Source: Leptolyngbya sp. FACHB-321 (GTDB lineage Bacteria > Cyanobacteriota > Cyanobacteriia > Leptolyngbyales > Leptolyngbyaceae). Taken from it: DNA of 39,379 nucleotides. Shown piece by piece: positions 14,355-39,379 of the stretch (its first letter is position 1; every line of letters begins with the position of its first letter). The DNA is taken from contig NZ_JACJPI010000019.1 in the NCBI RefSeq assembly GCF_014695975.1, positions 1-39,379 on the forward strand. Reading direction: 5' to 3'. The notes beneath the pieces are model-generated. The model worked only from the letters and a program-made list of their open reading frames with translations, was not told where the DNA came from and made no database searches. Position numbers and translations under genes: made by a program.

Positions 14355-14506
14355 TAGTTAGTAGGTCCTTGGTCTAAACCATTAGGTTGACTCTTTTAGA
14401 ATCTCAAAAAGCCTCAAAGGTATAGTCAGAGCGTGTGTTCGGCTTTTTGTCAGAGTGTCTGTCTGACAACTTTGACAGAATTGAAAGGAAAACTTTTGGC
14501 GCAGCT

Positions 14507-16831
14507 ATGGGACGACGATCGCTACAAGCGTCTATACAAGGGATTGCGGTGCTTAAAAAGGCGCTGAAGCAGAAGGGTGGCGGGCAAACATATGTCGCTG
14601 GCGCTGTAGGTTGTTCTCGTCAAACGATCTGGAGCCTATTGCAAGGCAATCCCATTGACTGTGATGTCTTCCTGGCAGTTTGTACGGAGCTGGCATTGCA
14701 GTGGGAGGAAATTGCCGCACCAGAGATTGCCGTACCAGAGGACAATGCTGCCATTGAAGCGCTGATAGAAACGGTACGTAAGCAGGTTCACGACAACATT
14801 CAATACCGCTGTGGGTCAATGCAGGTGTTGGACATGGCACAGCCGATTGGTCTAGATGCGATCTATACCGATGTCAACGTACTGAGAGACATTACGGGTC
14901 GGCAGCGTTTAGACCTAGCACAACTCCTACAGCACGCTGCCTTAGAAGACTTCGACCGCTTGGGTTTTACTCAAGTGAAAGTAGAGCGAGTGTCGGGGTT
15001 GGAAGCAGTGGAGCGTTTTGACAAGTTAATGCTCTTGGGCAAACCGGGAGCGGGTAAAACAACCTTTATGAAGCGGCTAGCCACATTGTGCAGCGCTGGC
15101 ACTTTCCAAGCTCACCGCGTGCCACTGTTTATACCTCTGAGAGATTTTGCGGAAGCAAAGGGGCAGCCGGGTTTGCTGGAGTACATTGGTCAGCAGCTGA
15201 CGACCCTTAAAGTCCAAGCTACACAGACAGCAGAGTCACTGCTAAACCACGGACGTGTCTTGGTCTTGCTCGACGGTTTAGACGAAGTGAGGGAAGAGGA
15301 TAGCAAACGGGTATTACAGGAAATCCGGTTCTTTGCCGACCAGTTTCACACCAATGCCTTTGTCATTACCTGTCGCATTGCAGCAAAAGAGTATACCTTC
15401 CAAGCCTTTACGGACGTTGAAGTTGCTGACTTTAACAAGAAGCAGATCGCTGGTTTTGTCACCAAGTGGTTTGCCTCCAAAAAGCTAGACAAGACAGCAC
15501 GGTTCTTACAAAGACTGGAAGAGAACCAACGCATTCACGAGCTAGCTACCAGTCCACTGTTACTAACCCTCTTATGTCTCATTTTTGAAGGACGAACGGA
15601 TTTCCCAGCGAACCGTTCTGAGCTTTACGAGGAAGGTGTGGACGTTCTCTTGAAGAAGTGGGACGGGACTCGCAGCATTGAACGAGAGCAAGTGTACAAA
15701 AATCTGTCCCTCAAGCGCAAGGAAGATCTTTTGAGTCAGATTGCGTTTACCACCTTTGAGCAAGGTAATTACTTCTTCAAGCAAAAGGCGATCGAGCAGC
15801 ACATTACAACCTATATTCAGAACCTGCCGGATGCTCAAACAGATCCCAAGACCTTACTTCTCGACAGTGAAGCGATCCTAAAGTCAATCGAGGCGCAGCA
15901 TGGTCTACTGGTGGCACGAGCAACAGGTATTTACTCTTTTTCTCACTTGACGTTTCACGAGTATTTCACTGCCAGACGCGTTGAGAAGCGCGCTGACTTG
16001 TTAGAACAACTGGTGAGACACGTGATGGAGACGCGCTGGCGAGAAGTGTTTTTGCTCACGGCTGGCATGTTGGAGAATGCTGACAAGCTTGTGCAATTGA
16101 TGAAAACTCAAATTGACCAGCTTGTGGCGGATGATGAAAAGCTACAGCAGTTTCTCCACTGGGCAAACAAGAAAGCAAGCTCTGTGGAAGTGTCTTATAA
16201 ACCCGCTGCTGTCAGAGCTTACTATACTTTTCTCGACAGCGCCCTCGACAGCGCCCGCGCCCTCAACCGCGCCAGCGACAGCGCCAGCGCCCTCGCCAGC
16301 GCCCTCGCCAGCGCCCTTGCCAGCGCCCTTGACAGCGCCTTAGCCCACGCCCGCGACCACGCCCTCGCTAGCGCCCTCGCCAGCGCCCACGCCCTCGCTA
16401 GCGCCCTCGCCAGCGCCCACGCCAGCACCCACGACCACGCCCTCGCCCGTGACCTCGCCAGCACCCTCGCCAGCGCCCTCGCCAGCGCCCTCAAGGACAC
16501 TGCAGATCCTGAATTGAGACAAGCTCTGCAAATGCTAAAAAACCAACTTCCTGACCTAGAAGGCGATCAAAAAGCCGCCAAGCAATGGTGGCAGGAGCAT
16601 GGTCAAAAGTGGTCCGAGCAGCTTCGAGCGGTCATGATTCAATACTGCAATATTGGACACAACTGGCAGTTCAGTCCCGATCAGGTACAAATGTTGGAGC
16701 AATACTTTACAGCCAATAAACTGCTGGTAGACTGCCTCAACAGCGATTGCTATGTGACCCGCTCAGTGCGTGAAGAAATCGAAGCCACTTTGCTGCTGCC
16801 GCAAAGCCTACCGCTGAATACTCATACGTAA
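14507..16831 (+). CDS. HTH-NACHT NTPase with Ala-rich helical repeat and NCH2-type C-terminus
   Basis: The protein has 774 residues from ATG at 14507, chosen because cyanobacterial relatives begin with a short M-x-R-R-S-L sequence like MGRRSLQASIQGI; the frame is open 24 codons further upstream. An HTH (about residues 10-65, AGAVGCSRQTIWSLLQGNP) is followed by NACHT motifs: Walker A LLGKPGAGKTTFMK (about 178), Walker B LVLLDGLDEV (about 251) and a sensor Arg in ITCRIAA (about 288). FSHLTFHEYFTARR is at about 480. Residues about 577-663 are a low-complexity ALAS/ALDSA/HARDHA repeat. The C-terminal NIGHNWQFSPDQVQMLEQYF and LLVDCLNSDCYV match the helical domain of cyanobacterial bNACHT proteins, a group with known phage-blocking members. 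The effector is not obvious and the repeat region is the likely variable part. Confidence 0.88.
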   Translation: MGRRSLQASIQGIAVLKKALKQKGGGQTYVAGAVGCSRQTIWSLLQGNPIDCDVFLAVCTELALQWEEIAAPEIAVPEDNAAIEALIETVRKQVHDNIQYRCGSMQVLDMAQPIGLDAIYTDVNVLRDITGRQRLDLAQLLQHAALEDFDRLGFTQVKVERVSGLEAVERFDKLMLLGKPGAGKTTFMKRLATLCSAGTFQAHRVPLFIPLRDFAEAKGQPGLLEYIGQQLTTLKVQATQTAESLLNHGRVLVLLDGLDEVREEDSKRVLQEIRFFADQFHTNAFVITCRIAAKEYTFQAFTDVEVADFNKKQIAGFVTKWFASKKLDKTARFLQRLEENQRIHELATSPLLLTLLCLIFEGRTDFPANRSELYEEGVDVLLKKWDGTRSIEREQVYKNLSLKRKEDLLSQIAFTTFEQGNYFFKQKAIEQHITTYIQNLPDAQTDPKTLLLDSEAILKSIEAQHGLLVARATGIYSFSHLTFHEYFTARRVEKRADLLEQLVRHVMETRWREVFLLTAGMLENADKLVQLMKTQIDQLVADDEKLQQFLHWANKKASSVEVSYKPAAVRAYYTFLDSALDSARALNRASDSASALASALASALASALDSALAHARDHALASALASAHALASALASAHASTHDHALARDLASTLASALASALKDTADPELRQALQMLKNQLPDLEGDQKAAKQWWQEHGQKWSEQLRAVMIQYCNIGHNWQFSPDQVQMLEQYFTANKLLVDCLNSDCYVTRSVREEIEATLLLPQSLPLNTHT
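16243..16495 (+). repeat. Degenerate tandem repeat inside the NACHT gene
   Basis: Runs of 6- and 12-bp units such as GCCCTCGCCAGC encode Ala-Leu-Ala-Ser type residues, punctuated by blocks reading CACGCC or CACGAC (His/Asp). The high GC and repeat purity suggest expansion by slippage. All unit changes seen keep the reading frame. Confidence 0.85.
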
Positions 16832-17000: not shown

Positions 17001-17408
17001 TTACTGCCAGGGCAACCGCAACGGAAAGGGTTTGGTTTCTAGTGGCTCGGCTGCTGGCGAAGTGGGGTTAACAGACTGCGTGAGTGCCACGTTCAGCGTC
17101 GCACTAAACTTTGCTCCAAGATTCAGTTTTAGCAGGTCATTGGTAGCTAATTCGTCAAGCGTTTGGTAACTCAATTGGTACTCCAGAATCGAGATAACTT
17201 CTTCGAGCCACTCGTCAGGCAACTGCCCTCGCAGCTCACGACGAATTTGAACAATTCTAGGATTCGATTGGTTAAACATAGCGTTAGCGAAAGCCTCTAC
17301 AAAAGTGCCGTAAACAGTGCCGTGTATAGTGCCGTAAACAGTGCCGTGTATAGTGCCGTAAAACTGCCGTGTGGACTGCCGTAAACAGTGCCGTACGGCA
17401 TACGGCAC
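17001..17408 (-). CDS. Hypothetical protein read through (or just after) a tandem repeat array
   Basis: The frame is open from a GTG at 17408 (135 residues). The first ATG after the repeats is at 17279 and gives 92 residues. The N-terminal part of the long form is the repeat array translated as (Y/H)GT(I/V) units. The shared part, MFNQSNPRIVQIRRELRGQL and onward to a helical segment VISILEYQLSYQTLDELATND, has normal protein character. The start is unresolved: either the array is coding, or it is an upstream site and the protein starts at 17279. The gene lies 22 bp after the HerA/FtsK-like gene and before two terminators, so it is probably the operon's last member. Function unknown. Confidence 0.5.
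   Translation of the reverse strand: MPYAVRHCLRQSTRQFYGTIHGTVYGTIHGTVYGTFVEAFANAMFNQSNPRIVQIRRELRGQLPDEWLEEVISILEYQLSYQTLDELATNDLLKLNLGAKFSATLNVALTQSVNPTSPAAEPLETKPFPLRLPWQ
17305..17408. repeat. Tandem 12-bp repeat array (iteron or centromere-like)
   Basis: Eight consecutive units of about 12 bp start at 17305, 17317, 17329, 17341, 17353, 17364, 17376 and 17388. Each begins GTGCCGT or CTGCCGT. The first four alternate exactly between GTGCCGTAAACA and GTGCCGTGTATA. The array ends with the reverse-oriented ATACGGCAC (17400-17408). Such regular short repeats are typical of replication iterons and of centromeres bound by partition adaptors, and they lie in the same operon as a ParM-like actin. 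Confidence 0.85.
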
Positions 17409-17429
17409 CTGACGTAACTAGCATTCCGT

Positions 17430-18968
17430 CTAGGTTTCGACCCACCGCACCCACTCCGCGCGGGAAGTGCCGTCTGAGAACGTTTCAATCAAGTGGAGGT
17501 TGATGAGCTCCAACAAAAGTTCTTGCACCTGCTCTGCGTTTAAGGAGTTGTTTTTACCCCAACTTTTCTTGAGATCTCGAACAGCAATCGCACCTTTTTT
17601 ACGCAGGTAAACGCCTAAGCTTTTGAGGTCACTTGTGGGTAAAGAATCGAGGCGACTGCGGGTTGAAGCCGGTTCGTCTGACGGTGGTTCAGCTTGCCAA
17701 CAGTCCTGTAACCAACCCACCACTTGAGTACGAAAATCAGGTGGTTTTGGCTGTGCTGGTGGTGATGATTGCAGTGTTGTTTGATTTACTTCAGATGGCG
17801 GTTGCGGTGGTAGCCACACGGTAAAGTCTGTAATTTTGCGCTCGATCGTCGGCAATTCAACCCCTAACCATTCAGCGTGCCCAGGCAGTTTTAACTTGCC
17901 CTTCCCACTCGATACAGGTTTACGAGTCGTGGGGTGAATCGTGGGGATGAGTTCTAATTCCAGCAGGGCTGCATCCCGTAAGCGAGCAATGCCCTTGGCA
18001 TCACCTAGTGCTGTAAGCGTCCGATCGTGCGCGACAAACAGGGGTGGCATCAGTACTTTACGGCTGTCACTCATGGCGGACTTGAAGAACTTACTACCGA
18101 TGTCACCCGGTAGCCTGTCTGCCCAGTTCGTCATTTCTTCAGAGACTACGCTGGTAATGCGCTGCTGCTGCCGTAAGGAATCTTGCCAATCTTCCTCAGT
18201 TAAACCGGAGCGGTTAAACTCCTGATAGCGGCGCTCGATTTCGTCGAGGTACCACTGCAAGAACTCAGCGATCGCGCGGTAGTCCATCCCAGCACCGATA
18301 TGGCGAATGCCTTTCCACTCGTGGTTGGCGGCGTGCGGATCGAGCAAAATCACCTGGTGACCCGCTTGCACTTTCTGCATGACCAGATAACGCGCCGTCC
18401 AACTTTTCCCAGCGCCCATACCGCCAAACAACAGCCCTGGATATTCCAGGAAGTTTTGCAGGTAGGCGGTAGGGTCAGCCGTGGGCTTAGATGTGGGTGT
18501 GGCAGGTGTTGCTGACTGCTGCTCAGGTGCGGTTGCTCCTACTGGCGGGTGAGCCTGCGGCTGCGCGGGCAACTCCTGGAACTCGGCATCCTCTACATCC
18601 AGGTAGGGTGCCATTTGGGGGTAGAACTTCTCAGCGGTTTGCAGTTGCGCCAATTGGCTATAGCCCTGTAAGTCGCTCTGATGCTGAATGGCTTGCAGCT
18701 GGCTCTGTTGCAGCAGTGTTTGCCGCTCCCACTCTTGATACGCTCGGCGATAGTCGCGGCGGCTCTGAGTCAGCAGCCAGGCAGAGATGCAAAGCCCAGT
18801 GCCCATCAACGACAGGGGGATTTTGCGGTAAGCCGCCTGGTAGGTAAGCTGCGTGCCTAGAAAGCGGAACGTTTCAGGCTGGTGTAGATAGCCACTGACC
18901 GAGAGTGCTGTGCTAGTCATACCAGCGGCTAGCAGCCCCAGAATCTGAGGCAGATACGGATCTTTCAC
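17430..18968 (-). CDS. Membrane-anchored HerA/FtsK/VirD4-like ATPase
   Basis: A 512-residue protein from GTG at 18968, overlapping the previous gene by 4 nt (GTGA) with GGAGG upstream. Two N-terminal hydrophobic segments (about residues 7-26, ILGLLAAGMTSTALSVSGYL, and about 50-66) are followed by a Gln-rich coil and a Pro/Thr-rich linker. The ATPase begins with LLFGGMGAGKSWTARYLV (Walker A, about 180) and VILLDPHAANHEW. ITSVVSEEMTNW (about 270) sits at the Walker B position. The C-terminus is a probable winged helix (LRKKGAIAVRDLKKSWGKNN). TM pair plus RecA-like pump is the plan of VirD4/TraD coupling proteins and FtsK. No relaxase is present in the window, so DNA transport in segregation or in conjugation with helper functions are both possible. 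Confidence 0.78.
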   Translation of the reverse strand: MKDPYLPQILGLLAAGMTSTALSVSGYLHQPETFRFLGTQLTYQAAYRKIPLSLMGTGLCISAWLLTQSRRDYRRAYQEWERQTLLQQSQLQAIQHQSDLQGYSQLAQLQTAEKFYPQMAPYLDVEDAEFQELPAQPQAHPPVGATAPEQQSATPATPTSKPTADPTAYLQNFLEYPGLLFGGMGAGKSWTARYLVMQKVQAGHQVILLDPHAANHEWKGIRHIGAGMDYRAIAEFLQWYLDEIERRYQEFNRSGLTEEDWQDSLRQQQRITSVVSEEMTNWADRLPGDIGSKFFKSAMSDSRKVLMPPLFVAHDRTLTALGDAKGIARLRDAALLELELIPTIHPTTRKPVSSGKGKLKLPGHAEWLGVELPTIERKITDFTVWLPPQPPSEVNQTTLQSSPPAQPKPPDFRTQVVGWLQDCWQAEPPSDEPASTRSRLDSLPTSDLKSLGVYLRKKGAIAVRDLKKSWGKNNSLNAEQVQELLLELINLHLIETFSDGTSRAEWVRWVET

Positions 18969-19324
18969 TTCAGCACCTCCTGTACTTGCTGTTGTACCTG
19001 TTGACTGGTGTGAGCGATCGCGTCAAACCAGCCGCTGAAAACAGCCACTATCAGCGCAATCGCGATGGCGAGTAACCGGGCACTCTGCGAGAGATAGGCA
19101 GGCAGCACGAGTGCCAGCAGACAAGCGATCGTGCCGATCCAGTAGAAGGGCAGCAAGGCTGGCAGCCAGCGGGCTAAGAGGGTTACGGTAATGCCCAGGG
19201 CAAACAAGCCCGTAAAGCGGCAAATACCGTTGAGGGCGTAGTCGATGCGATCTGCTTCTGGCTCTGGCTCGTAGCTGCCAGAAGCGGGGGGTAGTAGGAG
19301 CGGTGAATCGTATGGGTCAAACAT
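18965..19324 (-). CDS. Membrane protein of the actin/HerA operon
   Basis: A 119-residue protein. A Pro-rich acidic N-terminus (MFDPYDSPLLLPPASGSYEP) is followed by three to four hydrophobic stretches (ITVTLLARWLPALLPFYWIG; IACLLALVLPAYL; LLAIAIALIVAVFSGWF) and a short Gln-rich amphipathic tail ending in VQEVLK. It overlaps the HerA-like gene by 4 nt and follows the 217-residue gene by 3 nt. A ribosome site (GTGAGG) precedes the ATG. It probably forms part of a membrane complex with the ATPase. No family recognised. Confidence 0.72.
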   Translation of the reverse strand: MFDPYDSPLLLPPASGSYEPEPEADRIDYALNGICRFTGLFALGITVTLLARWLPALLPFYWIGTIACLLALVLPAYLSQSARLLAIAIALIVAVFSGWFDAIAHTSQQVQQQVQEVLK

Positions 19325-19327
19325 GCT

Positions 19328-19981
19328 TTACCTCACAAAGAAGTTTTTCACGCCGTTCCAGAAGCCTTTGCCAGGCTTGCCAGCAGTGCCATAGGTCAGC
19401 AGTTCTTTGCGGTTTTCGGCTTGTTGCCGTAACGCTTCTTGCACCTGCATCTGACGCTTTGCCTGGGGCAACCGCTCGCCGATCGCTTTGGCTCGGTTCT
19501 GATGCCGCAGGTGGATCAATTTCACTGCACTTTGGAAGTCAAGGCGGTTCAGGTCCTGCTCCGAGCGGTATTCGACGTTGAGGCGCTCCATGCCGTGCCC
19601 TGCTTTCTGGTTCAGCAGTTGCAGGTGCTTGTCATACCCTTTGCTGAGTAGCCAGGTATCTAGCAAACTCTTATCAATTTGCTTCGAGCCTTTTTCGACT
19701 TGCTTCAACACACGCTGAACAAACTGCTCGTACTCGGCTTGCCCTTCAATCAGCGTGGTGAAGTGCTTTTCGAGGATCGGCAGAATCTCTTTGAGTCGGG
19801 TCATCGCAGTGGCGCGATCAGCAAACAAGGCGAGGTCGTGGTCGCTCATTTGCGGCAGTCGTGCTAAGTCGATGCCGAAGTAGCGGGTCGCGCGTTCGGT
19901 CAGTGCCCCTGCGTGCGGCAGGAGATGGGATTGAATGCCCATGTGTCTGTTGCTGTAACCTTTGGGTCTTGGTGCTGACAT
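19328..19981 (-). CDS. Hypothetical helical protein of the actin/HerA operon
   Basis: The protein has 217 residues from ATG at 19981, preceded by AAGGAG and overlapping the previous stop in TAATG; an in-frame GTG nine bases upstream is less likely. It is almost entirely helical, rich in Gln, Lys, Arg and Leu, with no membrane span. Segments such as LADRATAM-like ALFADRATAMTRLKEILPIL, then VEKGSKQIDKSLLD and AKAIGERLPQAKRQMQVQE, suggest a long coiled coil. The tail is glycine- and basic-rich (GKPGKGFWNGVKNFFVR). It could be a cytoplasmic adaptor between the ATPase and DNA or filament. No family recognised. Confidence 0.72.
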   Translation of the reverse strand: MSAPRPKGYSNRHMGIQSHLLPHAGALTERATRYFGIDLARLPQMSDHDLALFADRATAMTRLKEILPILEKHFTTLIEGQAEYEQFVQRVLKQVEKGSKQIDKSLLDTWLLSKGYDKHLQLLNQKAGHGMERLNVEYRSEQDLNRLDFQSAVKLIHLRHQNRAKAIGERLPQAKRQMQVQEALRQQAENRKELLTYGTAGKPGKGFWNGVKNFFVR

Positions 19982-20352
19982 TAGTGACACTCCTTGTCTT
20001 CAGAGGACCAAAAGAGAAAACTGCTGCGCTGGGTGTCGCAGATTGGCGAGCGAGGGACGATGACAACCCGTTGACCAGAGGCACCCGCCAGAAAGCCAAT
20101 GCCATAGCCCAATAGGACCATGCCTAGTACGGCGGCAATGCCAATGAGGACGGTGTTCAAGGAATCGCGGTAAGTGGTGACGCGCTCAGTGTTTGGTGTT
20201 TGGGCTTGAGCCAGTACTGACTCTAGGGGCGTAAAGGTGGTGCTGCCGTCTGGCTGTTGTTTGACCAGGTAGGGCGTGCCACCCTGATCCGCCCAGACTG
20301 CCAGTGGTGTGGGTGACGGCTGAGCGCCTGGTAGGGCTTTAAGGTTGGACAT
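19981..20352 (-). CDS. Single-TM protein of the actin/HerA operon
   Basis: A 123-residue protein. A soluble N-terminus (MSNLKALPGAQPSPTPLAVW, with GGTPYLVKQQPDGSTTFTPL) is followed by one strong hydrophobic segment at about residues 70-92 (TVLIGIAAVLGMVLLGYGIG) and a short tail with two cysteines. A GGAGG site precedes the ATG, and the gene overlaps the upstream SH3b gene by 14 nt. Function unknown; it is presumably a membrane component of the same complex. Confidence 0.72.
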   Translation of the reverse strand: MSNLKALPGAQPSPTPLAVWADQGGTPYLVKQQPDGSTTFTPLESVLAQAQTPNTERVTTYRDSLNTVLIGIAAVLGMVLLGYGIGFLAGASGQRVVIVPRSPICDTQRSSFLFWSSEDKECH

Positions 20353-20902
20353 TAGGGCTTCCTCCGATAAAGTTGCTTGCTAGCCAACCGGACTGCCCAC
20401 GCCAGCGTACAGGTACCCACGTCACACCGTCTTGCTGTACACGGCGCTCAATGCTCAGTTCCACCAGGTCGCCTTGCAGCAACACGCCTAAGACCTGGCT
20501 CTGCAAGCTGGGTGCGGCGCGGAAGTTTGCCGCCACGCCAGGGCTATAGATACGGGTGATCGGTAAGAGCGCAGCATCACCCGGCGCTGGTGTCGCAGTA
20601 TGGGTGACGGCTTCTGTTTGAGGTATTGCAGGCGTTTCGGGCTGTGATGCGGTAGCATCCTGCTGGGATGCTAGGGACGGCTCGGTCGCTGGGGCGACGG
20701 AAGGCATAACAGTCGGACTGGCTGATGGGATTGGTGCTGGCTGTTGCTGCTGTGCAAAGCCAAAGCCAAACATTAAGAGTGGGATTGTCAGCAGCCCTAG
20801 AGCAAGGGGTAAGCCCCAACTCATAGAGGCTTTTGGTTTGGGTGGCTGTACGGGGTTGAGCGTGAAGAACTGCCCCTCACCTGTAAATGGTTGATTGGTC
20901 AT
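20339..20902 (-). CDS. Membrane-anchored SH3b-domain protein
   Basis: The protein has 187 residues from ATG at 20902 with GAGGAAAGCT upstream; an in-frame start at 20932 exists without a ribosome site. One TM segment (about residues 28-47, GLPLALGLLTIPLLMFGFGF) is followed by a Pro/Ala/Thr/Gln-rich linker of about 70 residues. The C-terminal bacterial SH3 domain (ARIYSPGVAAN-like YSPGVAANFRAAPSLQSQVL, then VTWVPVRWRGQSGWLASNF) is of the kind that binds peptidoglycan. The topology implies that the operon's complex reaches the cell wall, as in secretion machines. It is separated from the upstream gene by about 100 bp. Confidence 0.8.
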   Translation of the reverse strand: MTNQPFTGEGQFFTLNPVQPPKPKASMSWGLPLALGLLTIPLLMFGFGFAQQQQPAPIPSASPTVMPSVAPATEPSLASQQDATASQPETPAIPQTEAVTHTATPAPGDAALLPITRIYSPGVAANFRAAPSLQSQVLGVLLQGDLVELSIERRVQQDGVTWVPVRWRGQSGWLASNFIGGSPNVQP

Positions 20903-21005
20903 AGCTTTCCTCAAGCTGAAGGAGGCGATCATTCTGTTGTGGGTCAGGCGATCGCCAAGTTGACTGTGGCTGTGTTGTTGGTTCGTAGTCTCAAAATGCC
21001 AGTGC

Positions 21006-21293
21006 TTAAGCGCATTGCATGGAGGGAGGCAGAAAGCCTTCCAGGAGGTTCTCCCCGGCTGCTGGTGGCTGAGCGGGTTTTGCAGAGTGGCAGACTGCCA
21101 GTTGGCTTTCCCCAGCGACGGGAGCGCCCTCTAGCCCGATGCACCGGATGTGGTCGAGCACAATCACTGACAGGGCTTGGGAGGTATCGGTAATGCCTAG
21201 TTTTGCCGCTAAAGCCTGGAGATATTCGTATTGGTAGCCCATAGGAACACTGCCACGGTTGGTCTGGAGCGGTCGCTCGGCTTGATGACTCAT
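21006..21293 (-). CDS. Small protein coupled to the ParM-like gene, possible ParR-type adaptor
   Basis: The protein has 95 residues from ATG at 21293, overlapping the parM-like stop by one base (TGATG), with GGGAGG 8 nt upstream. It contains MGYQYEYLQALAAKLGITD and SQALSVIVLDHIR, plausible helices of a small DNA-binding or adaptor domain, then a Pro/Gly-rich tail. In actin-type partition loci the gene right after parM encodes the centromere-binding ParR, so position suggests that role. I cannot see a clear RHH signature here, and the RHH gene at 22547 is an alternative ParR. Confidence 0.6.
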   Translation of the reverse strand: MSHQAERPLQTNRGSVPMGYQYEYLQALAAKLGITDTSQALSVIVLDHIRCIGLEGAPVAGESQLAVCHSAKPAQPPAAGENLLEGFLPPSMQCA

Positions 21294-22345
21294 CACTGAC
21301 CTCCCATCCGGTTCAATAAGGTATCGGCTAGTTGCTTCAACCCTTTAGCGTTTTCGATCGCACTATGGGTGATAGGTACGATGCCACAGCTTTTGAGTGT
21401 GGGTTGGAGAGCAGGGAGGTTCGCACCACCACCGCAAGCAATGACTTCATCAGCATTGCGGTGATAGGGCATCCCAGCCTTCACTGCACGTACCAGCACC
21501 GCTCGTGCCCATTTCGTCAGCTCGTCGTGATAGATGTCTGCAAAGCTGTCGCCCTGCTTGCCGTAGAGCAGAGTGTGCTGCTCAATCCCCACGCGAATCA
21601 AATGGCGATCGCCCTCCTGCCCACGCTCCAACAACCGCATCGCGGGATGTTTAGCAATGGCTTCAATCAGGTTGTCGACGCCAGCAGGAATGTTTTCAGG
21701 TTGCCCAATGACGTTTCCGGTGGGACCGAACGCCAGCACACGGATAGTGCCACTGCCAATGTCGTAGATGACACGGCTGGATTGCTCTCTCGCTGCCAAA
21801 AGCCGTGCGGCACAAACGCCATAACCCTCTTCGTAGATGTGCCCAATGCGAATCGAGACTGTGGATGGTTGATGATGACCCAGAGCAACAGTGTGTCTGC
21901 CTTGTAGTGCTTGCTGGAGACGTTCACCATAGGTCTCAACTGAATGCACCGAGGCAACCAAGAAGAGCTGCCATTGTGGGCGATAAGGGAGTGTTGCTAT
22001 GGCTGAGAGCAGCAGCTGCAAGCCATACAGCACTTTTGCTTGTGGATCGTCAGCGTTCTTGATATAGCGCTTGGGATCGTCCAGATAAGCAGGCAGACCA
22101 CCGAGCCAGCTAGAGCCGACTAAATCAGCACGATCGCCATGCAGGTAGCGCACAAAGCCACCACCCAAACTGGTTGGGATATTGTGCAGCAGCTCGTATT
22201 GCTTCTCAGAGAAATAGGAGGGAATCACGACTTCCCGATGCCCACTGAGGACTAACTTCGACTGACCGAAGCCCGGATCGTAGCCTGCTGCCAATGTCTG
22301 TGTCGGCTTGGCAACTTTGGCTGTCGCTGCCAGTAATGGACTCAT
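21293..22345 (-). CDS. parM: ParM/StbA-like plasmid actin
   Basis: A 350-residue protein with actin-fold nucleotide motifs in order: phosphate-1 AAGYDPGFGQSKLVL (about residues 18-32), phosphate-2 VIYDIGSGTIRVLAF (about 190-204) and the adenosine motif VIACGGGANLPAL (about 305). Length and motif spacing fit plasmid actins and their StbA relatives. ParM filaments push plasmid copies apart when an adaptor bound at parC caps their ends. Ribosome site AGGAG lies 9 nt before the ATG. It heads a seven- or eight-gene coupled operon that also encodes membrane proteins and a DNA-pump-type ATPase, which is not a standard ParMRC locus. Confidence 0.85.
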   Translation of the reverse strand: MSPLLAATAKVAKPTQTLAAGYDPGFGQSKLVLSGHREVVIPSYFSEKQYELLHNIPTSLGGGFVRYLHGDRADLVGSSWLGGLPAYLDDPKRYIKNADDPQAKVLYGLQLLLSAIATLPYRPQWQLFLVASVHSVETYGERLQQALQGRHTVALGHHQPSTVSIRIGHIYEEGYGVCAARLLAAREQSSRVIYDIGSGTIRVLAFGPTGNVIGQPENIPAGVDNLIEAIAKHPAMRLLERGQEGDRHLIRVGIEQHTLLYGKQGDSFADIYHDELTKWARAVLVRAVKAGMPYHRNADEVIACGGGANLPALQPTLKSCGIVPITHSAIENAKGLKQLADTLLNRMGGQ

Positions 22346-22470
22346 GCTTGCATCTCCTGAAATAGTGTCAAAGCTTCGCTAAAGGGTCTTTGAGCGGCTT
22401 TCTAGAAGGGAAAAGCTTGCTGTAAGTTTTGCCGTTCGCCGTCACCACTGCCCTCTACTGCCGTTATGCT

Positions 22471-22509
22471 AGCATTGGTTCCAGTGTTGATAACATAGAA
22501 ACCAATGCT
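22471..22509. promoter_or_regulatory. Inverted repeat between parM and the RHH gene
   Basis: AGCATTGGTT (22471-22480) and AACCAATGCT (22500-22509) form perfect 10-bp arms around a 19-bp AT-rich spacer that itself holds the small dyad TGTTGATAACA. It lies in the divergent promoter region, so it is a likely operator for the RHH protein, or the centromere of the actin system. Confidence 0.6.
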
Positions 22510-22546
22510 TTACGCTTTGTATTCTTTGAAGAGGGCTAAGATTCTT

Positions 22547-22768
22547 ATGTTGCAAGCAATCAGCATTGACGCACTTATGGCGAAGTTCTCGGACGTTACC
22601 AAGAGGACGACAATCACCCTTCCAAAAGAAATTTTTGACAGCTTAGAAGCCTGGGCTGACGAGGAAGGGCGACCCACTGCGAATCTTGCAGCATTCTTGG
22701 TTGAGATGTCAGTACGAATCAAATTTCCTGATCGCTTCCCTCCCAAAATCCAGAGGGGAGAAGACTAA
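22547..22768 (+). CDS. Ribbon-helix-helix DNA-binding protein
   Basis: The protein has about 73 residues from ATG at 22547; an earlier in-frame ATG at 22505 lies inside the operator-like repeat, and a later one at 22577 would also keep the domain. TKRTTITLPKEIFDSLEAW is the beta strand and helix A of an RHH fold, and GRPTANLAAFLVEMSVR is helix B. Closely similar residues occur in the RHH protein at 35882 (LEAWAEYDGRPLANLCAYLLE), so the two are paralogues. Divergent to the parM operon, it could be its regulator or centromere-binding protein. Confidence 0.78.
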   Translation: MLQAISIDALMAKFSDVTKRTTITLPKEIFDSLEAWADEEGRPTANLAAFLVEMSVRIKFPDRFPPKIQRGED

Positions 22769-22832
22769 AAATTTTGTCGATCGCTTTTGCCAGATCTTTG
22801 CTACGATCACGCGAAATGGGACAAGTTAACTT

Positions 22833-23054
22833 ATGACCACTGTTGTTGTGAAAGCGTCATTAGGGCAACGGATGCGGCAAAAGCGAGAAATGCTTGGTCT
22901 TTCTCGCCATAAGGTTGCTGTTGCCTGTGAAGTCACGGAAAACACAGTGACTAATTGGGAAAACGGCAAGCACGTTCCCAAGTTGCCGCCCAAACAATTA
23001 GCAGCGCTGCTTGCAACACTTGAGTGGGAACTACAGGACTTAATTGATGACTAA
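22833..23054 (+). CDS. XRE-family helix-turn-helix regulator
   Basis: A 73-residue protein made almost only of one Cro/CI-type HTH: GQRMRQKREMLGLSRHKVAV (helices 1-2), EVTENTVTNWENGKHVPKLP (recognition helix) and KQLAALLATLEWELQDL. Single-domain XRE proteins commonly control plasmid replication or partition genes. It sits 470 bp upstream of the primase-like replication gene on the same strand and 64 bp after the RHH gene. The start is supported only by frame; a ribosome site is weak. Confidence 0.82.
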   Translation: MTTVVVKASLGQRMRQKREMLGLSRHKVAVACEVTENTVTNWENGKHVPKLPPKQLAALLATLEWELQDLIDD

Positions 23055-23082
23055 AGGAGGAAAACTTAAAAACTGAATATGC

Positions 23083-23111
23083 AAAACCCCTGATAGCAGA
23101 GCTACCAAGGG
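23083..23111 (-). terminator. Terminator-like hairpin read on the minus strand
   Basis: CCCTTGGTAGC-TCT-GCTATCAGGGG (minus strand) forms an imperfect 10-11 bp stem followed by TTTTGC. No minus-strand gene lies between it and hsdR 2.2 kb away, so it would terminate an untranslated transcript opposite the replication gene leader, if used. Confidence 0.45.
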
Positions 23112-23277
23112 CAAAGAAAAGCTTAATAAACCAAAAACCGAGTCGTACCACTCAAATTAACATCCGCACGTCGCCAAACTTGTGATGTTAACAGAGTCCT
23201 AAGCACGCCCCGGCTATGGTCTCCTAGCCACTGCCGTATTCCGGTAGGGCAAGAATGTTTATTGGTTTTGCTTTGGT

Positions 23278-23421
23278 GGTGTTGCTAATTCTATACAGCT
23301 CAAGACTTCACAGAAAAGTTGTGCAAATCAACAAGAATGGCTGTTTCAAGGGAGTCATCAGAGTATTCGTTGAACAACTTACCTTTGCAAGAGCTTAAGA
23401 CTGTATAGAATTAGCAACACC
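23278..23421. mobile_element. MITE-like element with 21-bp perfect terminal inverted repeats
   Basis: The left end GGTGTTGCTAATTC...ACAG (23278-23298) and the right end (23401-23421) are perfect inverted complements over 21 bp, with further imperfect pairing inside (CTCAAGAC against TCTTAAG; AAGTTGT against ACAACTT). The 144-bp interior has no coding frame. Length and structure are typical of a non-autonomous miniature transposable element mobilised by an IS elsewhere in the genome. No clear target duplication was seen. Confidence 0.75.
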
Positions 23422-23524
23422 CCAATACTAGCAAAAGTTGACATAATTGCCACAGTTGTAGCGTTAAGAGACTAGACCCAGAGCAGCATAGCGACTCGGC
23501 TCCCTAACCAATCAGGAGCCGATA

Positions 23525-25372
23525 ATGAAAGCCTCTTACAATCCAAACCCTAGAAACGCTCCTGACAGCAGCGTAGGCGAACCGCAGCAGGTCGTCTACA
23601 CCGACACTCTATCGCCTCAATTTCAATCTGTCGAGGAACAAGACGAGTTTCTTGCGCTCTGGATGCACCGCTATGACCACCTGTGGGCAGAGCACCCCGA
23701 TCCAAGCGAACGCCCAGACTGGAAGACGGAAAGCCGCTACCCCTTGAGCGATCGCTTGATCCAGCAAGGCGCTCACCTGTATGGTGTGCGGTTCGGCAAG
23801 TTAACACGGTATTTGGTGCTGGACATCGATCGAAACAGCGCCTATCACCCCTGCCACGACCCCTTTGCCATCAGACAGATGCTGGCAGCACTAGAAGTGA
23901 TTGGTTTGGTCGCTTACGTTGCCGTCACGAGTAGTTACAGCAGTGGTTTGCACCTCTATCTTCCCTTCGCACAGGAACAAAAACCATGGGCGATCGCCTT
24001 GGTCGTCAGCACACTATTAGAGCAAGCTGGGTTCAAACTCAAGCCAGGACAACTGGAAAGCTTCCCCAACCCAAGACCTTATACCAGCGGCACACCAAGT
24101 CTCTACAACGGGCACCGTTTACCACTACAAGCGGGTTCTTACTTGCTCAACCAGCACTGGGAACAGGTTTACACTGATCAGGCAGCGTTCGTGCAGCAGT
24201 GGCAGTGGGCAGAACAACGCAACGACCTGCACAGCAAGACTGTTGAGCACGTCCTCAAACAGGCAAAGCGTCAGCGGTACAAAGTTGTCACTGTTACCTC
24301 TCAGAAGTTTCTCAACGACCTGGACACCGAAGTTGAGCGGGGTTGGACGGAACATGGGCAGACGACCAAGCTGCTGGGTCGCATTGCCATGCGGGAATAC
24401 ATCTTCGGTCACATCTTGCGTGGTGGTGCACCCTTAACGGGACAAGCACTCGTAGACGCGATCGTTGAAGTCGCCATGGCGCTACCAGGCTACACAGAGC
24501 ATTGTCGGCATCAACACGAGATCCATAAGAAGGCAGCAGAGTGGGCACGGAGCATCGAGGCATCTCCCAAGTATTACCCCTACGACCCCAGTAAGCGACG
24601 CAAGTCAGCACTACAGCCTGAGTCACAGCCAGCAAACAACATCGTCTCCTTCCAGCAGTCACTCGCACTAGATGCGGCACGACGCATTCAAGCAGCGATC
24701 ACGCAACTGAATGCAACCGATAACTTTCCCACTGGTACGACCGCCAGGGCTGACGCGATCGTTGCCATAGCGCGGTGCAGCAAGCAGACCCTCAACAAGC
24801 ACAAGGAGCTGTGGCACCCTGACCACAAAGGAAGTCCTGTACTAACCGTTGCGGAGCCAGTTACAGCCATTTTAGGCAACCCTGACGCTCTACCACCTGA
24901 AACGCTGGAAGCCTTGCCGGAAGGGAGCGTACACGACTTGCTCTTAAATAAGTTTATGCCGTACTCTGCTGCCCCCCAAGGGCAAGCAGATAGGCTCAAA
25001 AAAGTAGGGGGGTCTGGGGGGTTTTCCACAGGTCAAGCTGATTCTTTAGCCACAAACGCAGAGTCGTCAGCTAGCAGTGGAGACTGTAACCTCGCTTCTT
25101 CCCTCTCTCAACTGCACTCTCCTGTTCCACTGTCATCACAGCGTCCTAATAGTCCAAAGTTCGCTAGTCCGGTGCTGGGTGCAGCCACCGCGATTGCTCA
25201 GACGGTGGCAGAGAAGCGACAACGGCGACAGGAGGCTTCGGCTGCCAGAATGCAGCAATGGTTAGAGTCAGGTGATCCGATTCTGGTTAAAGAGGCACAA
25301 GCTAGGCTTCATGTTCATGCAGACGCACTACTGGTAGACTTGCCATCCCAGGATCAGAGTGGGGGGAGCTAA
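23525..25372 (+). CDS. Primase-like plasmid replication protein
   Basis: A 615-residue protein with GGAG 7 nt before the ATG. The N-terminal half carries the features of an archaeo-eukaryotic-type primase core as used by plasmids: YLVLDIDRNSAYHP (acidic D-x-D, about residues 96-109), SSYSSGLHLYLPF (about 136-148, the S-x-H-like motif) and LESFPNPRPY (about 178). A helical region at about 275-350 follows, with KTLNKHKELWHP-like SKQTLNKHKELWHP (about 418). The C-terminus is low complexity and basic (AEKRQRRQEASAARMQQW). Proteins of this design are recurrent on cyanobacterial plasmids and are the best candidate here for the replication initiator. Its stop overlaps the end of hsdR by 3-4 bp in convergent orientation. 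Confidence 0.75.
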   Translation: MKASYNPNPRNAPDSSVGEPQQVVYTDTLSPQFQSVEEQDEFLALWMHRYDHLWAEHPDPSERPDWKTESRYPLSDRLIQQGAHLYGVRFGKLTRYLVLDIDRNSAYHPCHDPFAIRQMLAALEVIGLVAYVAVTSSYSSGLHLYLPFAQEQKPWAIALVVSTLLEQAGFKLKPGQLESFPNPRPYTSGTPSLYNGHRLPLQAGSYLLNQHWEQVYTDQAAFVQQWQWAEQRNDLHSKTVEHVLKQAKRQRYKVVTVTSQKFLNDLDTEVERGWTEHGQTTKLLGRIAMREYIFGHILRGGAPLTGQALVDAIVEVAMALPGYTEHCRHQHEIHKKAAEWARSIEASPKYYPYDPSKRRKSALQPESQPANNIVSFQQSLALDAARRIQAAITQLNATDNFPTGTTARADAIVAIARCSKQTLNKHKELWHPDHKGSPVLTVAEPVTAILGNPDALPPETLEALPEGSVHDLLLNKFMPYSAAPQGQADRLKKVGGSGGFSTGQADSLATNAESSASSGDCNLASSLSQLHSPVPLSSQRPNSPKFASPVLGAATAIAQTVAEKRQRRQEASAARMQQWLESGDPILVKEAQARLHVHADALLVDLPSQDQSGGS

Positions 25373-28300
25373 TTGAGGGTTGAGTCACCTTCCACATAGG
25401 GTTTGGAGTGATTTGTCTCAACCTCAAATTCTGTGAATACCTTTGCCTGCTCCAGCACCAACTCGATCGCGAGTGCCTGCATATCGGGCGGGTAGCCATA
25501 TTGCCGCAGTAAGCGTTTGACCATCACTTTCATTCTGGCGCGAACGCTTTCTTTCAGGTTCCAGTCGATCGAGGCGGTTTTGCGTACCCGTGACACTAGG
25601 ACGATCGCCAATTCTCGCAGTTGATCTTGCCCCATCACGTCCCGCGCACTCTGATTTTGAGCCAGGGCATCATAAAAGGCAAGTTCATAGGGTTCTAACC
25701 CCAACTCTTCACCCCGTTGTTTGGCGGCTTGGACATCTTTAGAGAGGTTGATTAGTTCTTGGATCACGTCCGTAACGCTAATTACCTGGTTTTGGTAGCG
25801 ACGGAGAGAGTCTTCCAGCATTTCGGTAAGCTGACGACTCTGGACAATGTTGGTGCGACGTTGGGCTTTGATTTCATCGCGCAACAGCTTTTTGAGCAAT
25901 TCCACTGCCAGGTTTTGATGCTCCATGCCTTCGACTTCTTCGAGAAATTCGTCGGAGATGATAGAGAGGTCAGGGCTTTTGATGCCTGCTTCGTCAAAGA
26001 TGTTGATGACGGTATCGGAAACGAGGGCTTGATCAACGACTTGCCGGATGGCGGTTTCGATTTCGACGTTGCTGAGGCTGCCGTCAGTGGGTTCCAGTTT
26101 GCGGAGACTGGCTTGGATCGCTTGAAAGAAGGAGATTTTTTCGGACTGGGCGATCGCTTCTGGATGATGAGCGGTGAGGGCATAGATTTTGGACAGGGCA
26201 GTGACGGCATCGAGGAAGCGATCTTTGATTTGTGGGTCGGCGACATAGTTTGCCGCCGCTTTGAGCAGGTTGAGTTTGTTTCCAGTGCTGGCGGTGAAAT
26301 AGGGCTGGTAATCAAACGACTCCATGACACCTTCAACCACTTCCAGTTTGGTGAGCAGTAGCCCGATCGCCACCTGCTGGTCGAGGGTGAGATCGCCTTT
26401 GCCGCCGCTTTGGGAGTAGAACTTCAGGGCTTCTTTGAGTTCATGGGCAACGCCTAGATAATCGACAATCAAGCCGCCTTGCTTCTCGAAATAAACGCGG
26501 TTGATCCGGGCGATCGCCTGCATCAGGTTGTGCCCTTTCATCGGCTTGTCGATATACATGGTGTGAAGGCTGGGGGCATCAAACCCAGTGAGCCACATAT
26601 CGCAGACGATGACGAGTTCGAGGTCGTTAGTGGGGTCTTTGAGCCGTTGCGCCAAAACCTGGCGCTTTTTCTTGTTGGTGTGGTGCTTGACGAGGTTGCC
26701 TTCATCGGAGGCACTGGCGGTCATAACGACTTTGATTTTGCCGCTGTTCAGGTCGTCACTATGCCAGTCGGGGCGGAGTTGGGTGATCTGTTCGTAGAGG
26801 TCGGCAGCGACCTGGCGGCTGAGGGTGACGATCATGCCTTTGCCGCGATTGGCAGTTTGGCGAATTTCAAAGTGGGTGATGATGTCGTTGGCAATATTCT
26901 TCAAGCGTTGGGTGGAGCCGACGATCGCCTCGATCCGGGTCTGCTTGGCTTTGGCTTGCTGGGTAGCGCTGAGGTCTTCAAAGCTGAGGTCTTCGTCCAA
27001 TTCATTGAGCAGTTCTCGTCCTTGCTCGTCGAGGTCTACTTTGACTAGGCGGCTTTCGTAGTAAATCGGGACGGTGGCGTTATCTTTGACGGCTTGGGCA
27101 ATGTCGTAGATGTCGATGTAGTCGCCAAAGATTTCAGGGGTGTTTTTGTCGGTCTGTTCAACCGGGGTGCCTGTGAAGCCGACGAAGGTGGCATTGGGTA
27201 AGGCATCACGGATGTATTTGGCGAAGCCGTAGCGGGTCTGTTTGCCAACGACGTTGCCCTCAGCATCTTTGATGTTGACCTGGTTGGCTTTGAACCCGTA
27301 TTGGCTGCGGTGGGCTTCATCGGCTAGGACAACGATGTTGGTGCGATCGCTGATCTTGGGATAGATCGTTTCGTTGTCTTGAGGGGAGAATTTCTGCACG
27401 GTGGTGAAGATGATGCCACCCGAATTGACGTTGAGCAGTTCGCGCACGGCATCGCGATCGCCTGCCTGTTGGGGAGATTGACGCAGCAGTTGACGACACC
27501 CGGCAAAGGTGTTGAAGAGTTGGTCGTCGAGGTCGTTGCGATCGGTGAGGATCACCAGGGTGGGGTTATTCAGCAGCAGGACGAGCTTGCCACTAAGGAA
27601 CACCATTGAGAGAGATTTACCGCTGCCCTGGGTGTGCCATACTACGCCGCCGCGATGGTTAGTTCTCGTGGCGGCTATGACGCTCTCAACAGCTAGATTG
27701 ACGGCGTAATACTGGTGATAGGCAGCCAGCTTTTTGGTGGTTTGCAGGTTAACGACTTCGGTTTTGGGGTCTACGGTCTTGATTTTTTCAAAGACGGTGA
27801 AGTGACGGATCAGGTCGAGCAGGGTGCCTTTGTTGAGCATCCCCTGAGTCAGGATTTCCAGTTCGTTGGTGTCGGGGTTGTTGTCGATGTCACCATTGGG
27901 GAGTTTGCGTTTCCACTGGCTGAAGCGGCTAAAGGAAGCAGAGAGGGAGCCTGCACGGGCAGAGGTGCCATCGGAAATGATCAGCAGGGCGTTATAGGTA
28001 AAGAGGCTGGGAATCTCGCGCTTGTAGGTCTGTAGTTGGTTAAAGGCGGCTTGCAGGTGAGCCTTGGCATCGGCAGCGTTTTTGAGTTCGATTACGACCA
28101 GGGGCAGCCCGTTGATGAAGAGGATGATGTCGGGGCGGCGGTTGTGGTTGTCTTCGATAACGGTGAACTGATTTACCGCGAGGAATTCGTTATTGGCGGG
28201 ATTATCCCAGTCAATCAGCCAAAGCTTTTCACCTTTAGGTTCGCCGTCGCGCTGATATTCAACGGTGATGCCTTCCGTGAGGTAGCGATGGAAGATTTCG

Positions 28301-28560
28301 TTGTTATTGATCAGGTCAGGAGTGGCGATGTTTTGCAATTCCCGCTGGGCTTGATGACGCGTTTCGGGGGGAATGTGGGGATTGATCCGCCCCAGGGCTT
28401 GGGTCAGGCGGTCTTTGAGCAGGACATCACTAAAGCTCTGGCGTTCGGGTGCGGCTCCTTCGGGTTCTAGGGTGTAGCCGTTTTTGTAGCCATAGCCTAG
28501 GGCATCGAGTAGTTCGAGGTTGTATGCTTCAATCTGGTCTTCAGTGGTGAATTTGCTCAT
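25369..28560 (-). CDS. hsdR: Type I restriction enzyme, R (motor/nuclease) subunit
   Basis: A 1063-residue protein, full family length. The N-terminal PD-(D/E)XK nuclease has RPDIILFINGLPLVVIELKN (about residues 140-160), with the Asp and E-L-K catalytic set. The SF2 motor follows: motif I VWHTQGSGKSLSM (about 305), motif II VVLADEAHRSQYG (about 408), motif III ATFVGFTGTPVE, and later motifs including LVIVCDMWLTGFDAP and AIARINRVY. The C-terminal part is helical and binds the methylase core. HsdR translocates DNA and cuts unmethylated DNA at a distance. It is the last gene of the minus-strand hsd operon, 45 nt after the HNH gene. It looks intact. Confidence 0.96.
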   Translation of the reverse strand: MSKFTTEDQIEAYNLELLDALGYGYKNGYTLEPEGAAPERQSFSDVLLKDRLTQALGRINPHIPPETRHQAQRELQNIATPDLINNNEIFHRYLTEGITVEYQRDGEPKGEKLWLIDWDNPANNEFLAVNQFTVIEDNHNRRPDIILFINGLPLVVIELKNAADAKAHLQAAFNQLQTYKREIPSLFTYNALLIISDGTSARAGSLSASFSRFSQWKRKLPNGDIDNNPDTNELEILTQGMLNKGTLLDLIRHFTVFEKIKTVDPKTEVVNLQTTKKLAAYHQYYAVNLAVESVIAATRTNHRGGVVWHTQGSGKSLSMVFLSGKLVLLLNNPTLVILTDRNDLDDQLFNTFAGCRQLLRQSPQQAGDRDAVRELLNVNSGGIIFTTVQKFSPQDNETIYPKISDRTNIVVLADEAHRSQYGFKANQVNIKDAEGNVVGKQTRYGFAKYIRDALPNATFVGFTGTPVEQTDKNTPEIFGDYIDIYDIAQAVKDNATVPIYYESRLVKVDLDEQGRELLNELDEDLSFEDLSATQQAKAKQTRIEAIVGSTQRLKNIANDIITHFEIRQTANRGKGMIVTLSRQVAADLYEQITQLRPDWHSDDLNSGKIKVVMTASASDEGNLVKHHTNKKKRQVLAQRLKDPTNDLELVIVCDMWLTGFDAPSLHTMYIDKPMKGHNLMQAIARINRVYFEKQGGLIVDYLGVAHELKEALKFYSQSGGKGDLTLDQQVAIGLLLTKLEVVEGVMESFDYQPYFTASTGNKLNLLKAAANYVADPQIKDRFLDAVTALSKIYALTAHHPEAIAQSEKISFFQAIQASLRKLEPTDGSLSNVEIETAIRQVVDQALVSDTVINIFDEAGIKSPDLSIISDEFLEEVEGMEHQNLAVELLKKLLRDEIKAQRRTNIVQSRQLTEMLEDSLRRYQNQVISVTDVIQELINLSKDVQAAKQRGEELGLEPYELAFYDALAQNQSARDVMGQDQLRELAIVLVSRVRKTASIDWNLKESVRARMKVMVKRLLRQYGYPPDMQALAIELVLEQAKVFTEFEVETNHSKPYVEGDSTLN

Positions 28561-28605
28561 AAGACCGGAGAGAGTGCTGAGATTTAGTTTTCCCGTAGCA
28601 CGCCT

Positions 28606-29850: not shown

Positions 29851-29868
29851 TGCATGACCTTAAAAAAG

Positions 29869-39263: not shown

Positions 39264-39379
39264 CTACTCTGTGTTGATCACCAACTCATCCCCGTAGTAG
39301 CTAGCACCATCGGGTTCCCATAAGCCTTTACCGCCATCAGCAACCCATTCCAGTGCCATGAACTCACGCTGCTGATCAG
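39264..39379 (-). CDS. 3' part of the 85-residue gene, repeated because of circular overlap
   Basis: This is the second copy of bases 1-113 plus the true stop codon TAG (39264-39266) of the gene that begins at 255. It is not an independent gene. It shows that the frame closes properly once the ends are joined. Confidence 0.85.
   Translation of the reverse strand, partial: DQQREFMALEWVADGGKGLWEPDGASYYGDELVINTE
39267..39379. repeat. Terminal direct repeat (right copy)
   Basis: Identical to 1-113. See the left copy; the unique circle is about 39,266 bp if this is assembly overlap. Confidence 0.93.

Follow-up and report, generated by a model that had tools for sequence, protein, structure and literature searches.

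Among described DNA pumps, the TraB proteins of Streptomyces plasmids are reported to move duplex DNA independently of other known secretion subunits, Spd membrane proteins being needed for mycelial spread (PMC12857230), and such intramycelial spread has been argued to be a stability function as well (PMC4170104). The clt of the Streptomyces plasmid pWTY27 is given as 16 bp within traA plus the next 159 bp, with four 7-bp TGACACC repeats, and helix 3 of the winged helix of pSVH1 TraB as the reader of 8-bp repeats (PMC3583192). The plasmid pump TcpA has been reported as closer to FtsK than to TrwB, and its plasmid, pCW3 of Clostridium perfringens, as encoding a type IV secretion channel and a relaxase, TcpM, related to tyrosine recombinases (PMC12857230). 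On the actin side, FcmBC of filamentous cyanobacteria are described as chromosomal relatives of plasmid ParMR, absent from unicellular strains (PMC12645912). Here we analyze a stretch of 39,379 nucleotides from Leptolyngbya sp. FACHB-321 (contig NZ_JACJPI010000019.1, termed G000:C11 in our set and hereafter the window), which carries on its minus strand an operon running from a ParM-type actin gene, through several membrane and coiled-coil genes, to a P-loop ATPase gene with a repeat array behind it (Table 1). Its first and last 113 bases are identical (1-113 = 39267-39379), which makes the window a complete circular plasmid with a length of 39,266 bp. Our tentative reading, for which the arguments on either side come close to balancing, is that the unit is a self-addressed membrane pump for double-stranded DNA with cell-to-cell spread along the filament.

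An earlier note, made from the letters of the window, had described the operon as a single machine in which an actin filament positions plasmid DNA at an envelope-anchored translocase, and had counted uniqueness of the gene order to this plasmid as evidence against it. The order is not unique, as it recurs in dozens of other loci. ATPase matches are present in five of six relatives from the genus of the window (two to seven each), the full-length copies sharing 77-84% identity, and among named relatives the window ATPase is nearest to those on Stenomitos contigs (about 80%). The set conserved in the genus consists of an SH3b protein, a protein with one transmembrane helix (TM), a coiled-coil protein, a three-TM protein, the ATPase and a short last gene. 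Outside the genus the core comprises the coiled-coil protein, the membrane protein and the ATPase, and a gene of about 131 amino acids (aa) replaces the SH3b and one-TM genes; with one seed and a threshold of 1e-4, the SH3b protein was not detected there. Identity of the coiled-coil protein is 81-89% within the genus, 46% in Coleofasciculus and 16-25% in Nostoc and other operons, and Nostoc-type operons have a gene in the slot of the three-TM protein with 20-29% identity to it. The genome search kept 80 of the 94 loci found, which are not independent, many of them coming from the same strains and genera. Genes were called crudely, longest open reading frame (ORF) first, and 49 of the 80 loci had 6.5 kb of upstream sequence; among these, the coiled-coil gene was seen in 43, the membrane gene in 43 (some of the misses being ORFs displaced by the caller), ParM in 33 and a recognised replication gene in 28.

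The genera named on the 80 kept loci are ones we take to be filamentous, four loci being metagenome-assembled genomes named only as Oscillatoriales. In PLSDB, 30 records match the window ATPase (1e-5, all cyanobacterial) and 45 and 37 match two Nostoc forms; these, too, belong only to genera that we presume to be filamentous. A control of 262 PLSDB records matched by the replication protein, which also holds unrelated records, includes Synechococcus (23), Acaryochloris (10) and Picosynechococcus (9). In a class-wide genome sample, 62 of 388 genomes had an ATPase match at 1e-3, many of them partial, and a phage collection searched with the window ATPase gave no match. Literature searches on cyanobacterial plasmids combined with ParM, FtsK, TraB, clt or septal transfer, covering titles and the beginnings of abstracts, did not find the unit described. 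In one record, NZ_CP054696.1 (L173), replication gene, cassette, core unit and relaxase are each present twice and the two arrays differ in their word, as if two plasmids had fused; one of its ParM genes is split.

Across these loci the first genes of the operon vary and the ATPase stays alike. The cassettes in the 49 loci are, besides the 33 with ParM, a helix-turn-helix (HTH)-coil protein in six, a MerR-like protein or its partner in four and an HTH protein of 124 aa with a 187-aa partner in three; three loci have none, two of which have shortened ATPases. In the genus of the window, ParM with a ParR-like gene was seen in the window alone, and the other typed copies (11/11) have non-actin cassettes, namely a MerR-like protein of 87-88 aa with a 137-aa partner or a protein of 193-283 aa in which an N-terminal HTH is variable and the C-terminal helical part conserved. 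In Nostoc the slot is taken by ParM and a small partner, by a shorter actin and its 138-aa partner, or by the 124-aa HTH protein with its 187-aa partner. Because the same ATPase set stands behind differing cassettes, ParM appears from these comparisons to be one of several interchangeable delivery cassettes and not the heart of the unit. What stands of the single machine of the earlier note is thus a conserved unit that joins a partition-like cassette, often ParM, to a membrane-associated, DNA-pump-like ATPase on many plasmids; the actin is optional. The DNA-binding proteins of the cassettes were also considered as readers of the array and rejected, cassette type and repeat word not being linked within the genus.

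In 16 genus loci, repeats occupy the same place directly behind the ATPase gene; they are built of ACGGCA in seven, ACATCAC in five, CCGTCAC in three and ACCTCA in one, and the direct copies in the window are about one helical turn apart. In the 220 bp following the gene, a single 6-mer occurs six times or more for 62 of 96 ATPase genes; of the 917 other ORFs in these loci with a length of at least 150 aa, 3 show the same, and two of these three exceptions (L105 and L126) face the array of the ATPase gene from its far side. No array follows ATPases that have another C-terminal domain (L120, L129, L141 and L175, the last, CP031943, broken into several frames) or that are cut short (L143), and L121 and L123, which have another winged-helix sequence, have other top words (four and six copies, the four being within shuffles). 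The array, which the earlier note mentions in passing, is probably the key element of the unit. In the window it forms one compact block, its word showing no orientation bias around the plasmid beyond composition; a KOPS-like polarity of ACGGCA was accordingly rejected (25 versus 9 outside the array, near the expectation of a fourth-order composition model).

The word of the array varies together with the C-terminus of the ATPase. In Nostoc-type loci, the winged-helix type VREF...ERF goes with AGACAC (48/48) and the type IQE.QPNFKVKG..RF with GACAGA (16/16), a rule that holds across both main motor types; the 9 of 73 loci with neither word have other C-termini (L118, L120-L124, L129, L141 and L143), and seven of seven further copies of both types agree, one of them with only three copies of its word. 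In the genus, ACGGCA is found with WGKNN and a wing of DG or NG, ACATCAC with WGRNQ and PLN, ACCTCA with WGKNN and PLT, and CCGTCAC with WGQSK and PV. Over 16 genus loci (the shortened L080 and L081 being left out), the mean association with the word is 0.10 for the N-terminus, 0.17 for the motor and 0.42 for the C-terminus; the best associated columns are 500, 474, 472 and 460, and residues 483 and 490 also go with the word. Two plasmids keep the N-terminal anchor, but past the Walker A region their motor is no longer matched by the family profile; the C-terminus of both shares RDLKK and the DG wing with the window, and their arrays consist of ACGGCA, in eight and six copies. Together, these patterns suggest that the ATPase recognises the array through its predicted C-terminal winged helix, and recognition of the array by the ATPase we consider very likely.

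Other results sit less easily with recognition. The array of L067 has three copies, no more than shuffles; no array was found behind the ATPase genes of L118, L122 and L124, which have winged-helix-like C-termini; and the ACCTCA copy differs from the ACGGCA copies in the wing and elsewhere and not at residues 472 and 474. The codons of the winged helix, moreover, adjoin the array, so that linkage explains part of the co-variation, and the 92-aa gene beyond the array co-varies as well (mean 0.32, or 0.26 for its first 60 residues, versus 0.43 for the ATPase C-terminus in this control, from which L068 dropped out). The array could on these grounds be merely an operator or terminator for the following gene that tracks the winged helix by linkage, which would be compatible with other uses of the unit. 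We regard this as very unlikely, given that the downstream gene differs between genera and the arrays stay, that other kinds of C-terminus go with an absent array, and that ACGGCA recurs with RDLKK and the DG wing on a different motor. L124 lies within a 5.35-Mb chromosome record.

In an AlphaFold2 model made from a 73-sequence alignment, the motor core of the ATPase is confident (roughly residues 171-380, mostly above 90). Its best match is TcpA of pCW3 (residues 163-387, Z 17.3, root-mean-square deviation (rmsd) 3.1, 201 aligned), with FtsK tied in second place (residues 149-383, Z 16.4, rmsd 5.0, 217 aligned; another FtsK, 15.8), followed by EccC (Z 14.7), HerA (13.1) and VirB4 (12.4). The label HerA/FtsK/VirD4-like given to the ATPase by the earlier note can hence be narrowed to TcpA and FtsK as best fold matches; VirD4 and TrwB are not among the matches listed, which excludes nothing. 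Folded alone, C-terminal residues 395-512 (118 residues) are predicted to form a winged helix, with elements in the order H1-S1-H2-H3-S2-S3 and matches to MecI (Z 10.4, rmsd 2.1, 71 aligned) and MarR (10.3). The N-terminal helices are clearer in some relatives, such as L007, with hydrophobic peaks of 2.30 and 1.71. On two plasmids of one Nostoc strain (L010:19167-21011 and L182:37536-39434) the N-terminal anchor is near-identical and the motor different, which points, on sequence comparison, to an exchange of the motor within a single gene.

No match of PF03432, PF08751, PF01076 or PF03389 was obtained on the window contig, and a Pfam scan of all 16 ORFs of 250 aa or more found no VirB4 or other channel protein; the remark that no relaxase or VirB-type protein is visible thus extends to the complete circular plasmid, and a VirD4 conjugation system encoded here was rejected on the same grounds. 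As to a relaxase nearby in relatives, which the earlier note had named as an objection, the outcome is divided. Of 18 complete plasmids with the core, 13 carry a detectable relaxase, of varying type and outside the operon in the records seen, and none was detected on the other five with seven seed proteins (and, for three of them, also four Pfam models). The ATPase might therefore be a coupling protein for relaxase-dependent mobilisation through the channel of another element. This would agree with TcpA as top fold match, with the relaxases on those 13 plasmids, with the PLSDB typing of 22 of the 30 window-ATPase records as mobilizable (63 of 262 in the replication-protein control) and of 1 of the 45 and 4 of the 37 Nostoc-ATPase records as conjugative, and with two genus contigs (G001:C59 and G003:C548) that carry both ATPase and relaxase. 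We nevertheless judge it unlikely, in view of the five plasmids on which no relaxase was detected, of a genus genome (G006) with four full-length ATPase copies, none on a contig with a four-family relaxase match (these contigs not being closed), and of a relaxase class that varies when the unit does not.

A tyrosine recombinase is detectable on all 18 complete plasmids, often near the unit, and would allow dimer resolution in the manner of FtsK and Xer, with the ATPase acting on the recombinase of the plasmid. Tyrosine recombinases are, though, common on plasmids in general, those seen here are of several types and lie outside the operon, and AP018200, the one plasmid where ParM was seen and the ATPase not detected, has one too; together with the compact, unoriented array of the window, this makes dimer resolution a most improbable use.

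A possible if doubtful alternative is segregation, in which the ATPase would use the array to hold or pull the plasmid at the membrane or division septum, as in SpoIIIE/FtsK-like clearing, and the cassette would bind a centromere, driven by actin in the window and working elsewhere without a nucleoside triphosphatase. It would account for a slot that takes either ParM/ParR or HTH proteins and their helical partners, for the recognised replication genes upstream in more than half of the 49 loci, for a unit that is not tied to a relaxase, and for the short version carried by a phage. The last is found on the tailed-phage contig L151, which carries an RHH (ribbon-helix-helix) gene, an HTH-coil protein and a 307-aa ATPase preceded by a separate 78-aa one-TM protein. 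Against segregation, a ParA gene is present on 17 of the 18 complete plasmids, so that another partition system is already there, and in Streptomyces it is transfer systems that have their loading array placed behind the gene of the pump. It is for the clt-like layout, the filamentous hosts and this second partition gene that we favour transfer. Viral contigs L148-L151 carry a TM-less form of the ATPase, and L151 has a terminase (3.9e-117). Three CTGACA copies follow the ATPase stop codon of the phage contigs directly and in tandem; CTGACA occurs four times behind the ATPase gene in L148-L151, above shuffles in one of the four and not in L151.

Several observations weigh against a self-addressed pump serving transfer. 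The unit adjoins replication and partition-like genes and not transfer genes, its phage-borne short version fits maintenance better than transfer, and most of the complete plasmids have a relaxase, as described above. Hydrophobicity is weak in the two helices at the N-terminus of the window ATPase, which peak at 1.37 and 1.28, the best Foldseek match of the C-terminal model has an E-value of 1.9e-3, none falling under 0.001, and a close sequence relation to TraB was not found, no TraB sequence having been compared directly.

Gene order, predicted folds, the position of the array and its co-variation with the winged helix can be read from the sequences; starting from these, binding, pumping, membrane site, direction and transfer may be pictured as follows. 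An inner-membrane complex would be built around a double-stranded DNA translocase of the FtsK/TraB type, the winged helix of which would read the array behind its own gene, so that the ATPase would load there as a ring and pump its own plasmid. The coiled-coil and membrane proteins would anchor the pump in the envelope, the SH3b protein of the genus could hold peptidoglycan, and the partition-like cassette (in the window, ParM and the ParR-like protein) would bring the plasmid to the pump site or hold it there. The most likely use would be to pass the plasmid as duplex DNA from one cell of the filament to the next with no relaxase involved, as TraB and Spd do in mycelial Streptomyces. Such spread would at the same time serve stability, in keeping with the position of the unit among replication and partition genes. 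It is possible, although here doubt has somewhat the upper hand, that this represents a second system of the TraB/clt type, a relaxase-free duplex pump with an address in its own array and exchangeable cassettes that spreads plasmids through filament septa. If so, two distant multicellular groups, the mycelial actinomycetes and the filamentous cyanobacteria, would share a plan in which a ring pump knows its own plasmid by short repeats. Such a plan would help to explain how strains keep several similar plasmids of 30-60 kb apart. It would also give genes a way to spread among cyanobacteria without a relaxase, tie a bacterial actin to a DNA pump and supply a code between winged helix and short repeat that can be put to the test.

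All the genes named by the earlier note were recovered as open minus-strand frames (Table 1). The small gene overlaps parM by 4 nt, the 1 nt of the note holding if the second of two leading ATGs is used, and the 217 aa of the coiled-coil protein require a start at 19981. Both the repeat array (17304-17395) and the last gene were confirmed, the latter probably starting 3' of the array. Of two terminators, one was recovered after the last gene, where a stem of 8 pairs at 16890-16870 on the minus strand runs into T. Taken over all its hits, the terminator scan barely exceeds shuffled sequence (9 sites versus 5.9 +/- 2.2 expected). The SH3b gene follows after a 73-nt gap, the one-TM gene overlaps by 14 nt and the ATPase gene by 4 nt. 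The actin matches Pfam ALP_N (2.6e-5) and MreB-like_C (7e-5), both below the cut-off, and can be aligned with 13 plasmid ParM relatives. The 96-aa gene aligns weakly (21-28% identity) with the second genes of six Nostoc and Tolypothrix operons and has no Pfam match; it is, on sequence comparison, the probable ParR-like partner of ParM.

Table 1. Positions of the operon, its array and neighbouring features in the window.
Feature	Position	Strand	Basis or remark
ParM-type actin, 350 aa	21293..22345	-	PHROG partition protein, 4.4e-12; exchangeable cassette slot
ParR-like partner (probable), 96 aa	21006..21296	-	RHH-like N-terminus, short C-terminal tail
One-TM protein with SH3b domain	20339..20932	-	Pfam SH3_3, 3.2e-8; TM 41-59; conserved in the genus
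One-TM protein, 123 aa	19981..20352	-	TM 68-86; conserved in the genus
Coiled-coil-like protein, 217-220 aa	19328..19990	-	Core of the unit; sequence comparison
Membrane protein, three predicted TM	18965..19324	-	Core of the unit; hydropathy
P-loop ATPase, 512 aa	17430..18968	-	Two weakly hydrophobic N-terminal helices, FtsK/TcpA-like motor, predicted C-terminal winged helix
Walker A motif, residues 182-190	18399..18425	-	G182, G185, G187, K188 and S189 invariant in 73 aligned sequences
Predicted winged-helix domain, about residues 447-509	17442..17630	-	Model and alignment
Repeat array	17304..17408	-	On the operon strand, two inverted, then eight direct ACGGCA; direct spacing 11-12 bp
92-aa gene after the array	17001..17279	-	91-92 aa frame in 15/16 genus loci
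Divergent RHH gene	22505..22768	+	Pfam RHH_5, 2.8e-15; slot of ParG/RHH genes in many relatives
Imperfect palindrome	22471..22509		Divergent promoter region; 18-nt arms, 83% complementary
615-aa protein, replication-protein slot	23525..25372	+	NCBIfam ligD_pol, 0.038, below cut-off (weak primase/polymerase match)
Inverted repeat	23248..23451		51-nt arms, 73% complementary; inner perfect 21 nt
NACHT protein	14435..16831		Repeat run at 16232-16492
NACHT protein	8892..11780		
hsdR, hsdS, hsdM	25369..32771		Type I restriction-modification; TPR/HNH gene in between
646-aa protein	33419..35359		No Pfam match

Upstream of the operon, the palindrome of the divergent promoter region is a candidate operator or centromere; within 22300-23560 no iteron array of the parC type was found, this one imperfect palindrome being present. 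A small HTH gene is likewise divergent from the operon, beside the RHH gene and the 615-aa gene, and homologues of the 615-aa protein occupy the same slot across the genus. The inverted repeat ahead of the latter gene is a possible replication origin element. Elsewhere in the window, a degenerate 12-nt repeat run in one of the two NACHT proteins encodes an Ala/Ser-rich stretch, and relatives of the 646-aa protein adjoin the unit in three genus loci. By eye, the end of this protein has motifs like those of tyrosine recombinases; as a hidden relaxase it was rejected, for it has no Pfam match and its best match to a solved structure is no better than 0.078. No Rfam family matched in the window.

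When the unit is set beside known systems, ParMRC and FcmB/FcmC have in common with it a ParM-group actin followed by a small ParR-like gene; unlike in those systems, the window pair can be exchanged and stands at the head of a longer operon with membrane-protein and ATPase genes. FtsK reads DNA by a C-terminal winged helix, and the motor fold of the window ATPase is that of FtsK/SpoIIIE, as its two FtsK matches indicate; the unit differs from these in having one local array of a word without orientation bias beyond composition and in being plasmid-borne. TcpA provides the best motor fold match, tied with FtsK, and pCW3 also has ParMRC; for the secretion channel and the relaxase of pCW3, no counterpart was detected in the window.

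The fullest likeness is to TraB/clt and Spd of Streptomyces (TraA in pWTY27). The two share an FtsK-type motor, linked to the membrane in TraB and probably so here, that ends in a winged helix (a predicted one in the unit). They also have in common short repeats specific to the plasmid, which in pWTY27 lie where the pump gene has its 3' end, as well as membrane proteins in the unit, a multicellular filamentous host and, as a feature of TraB, no need for a relaxase (PMC3583192, PMC12857230, PMC4170104). Unlike TraB/clt, the unit belongs to a double-membrane cyanobacterial host, its ATPase matches Pfam FtsK_SpoIIIE weakly (9e-4, below the cut-off), and it is linked to replication and partition genes and partly to actin. 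By analogy of layout, the unit would be best read as working like TraB/clt.

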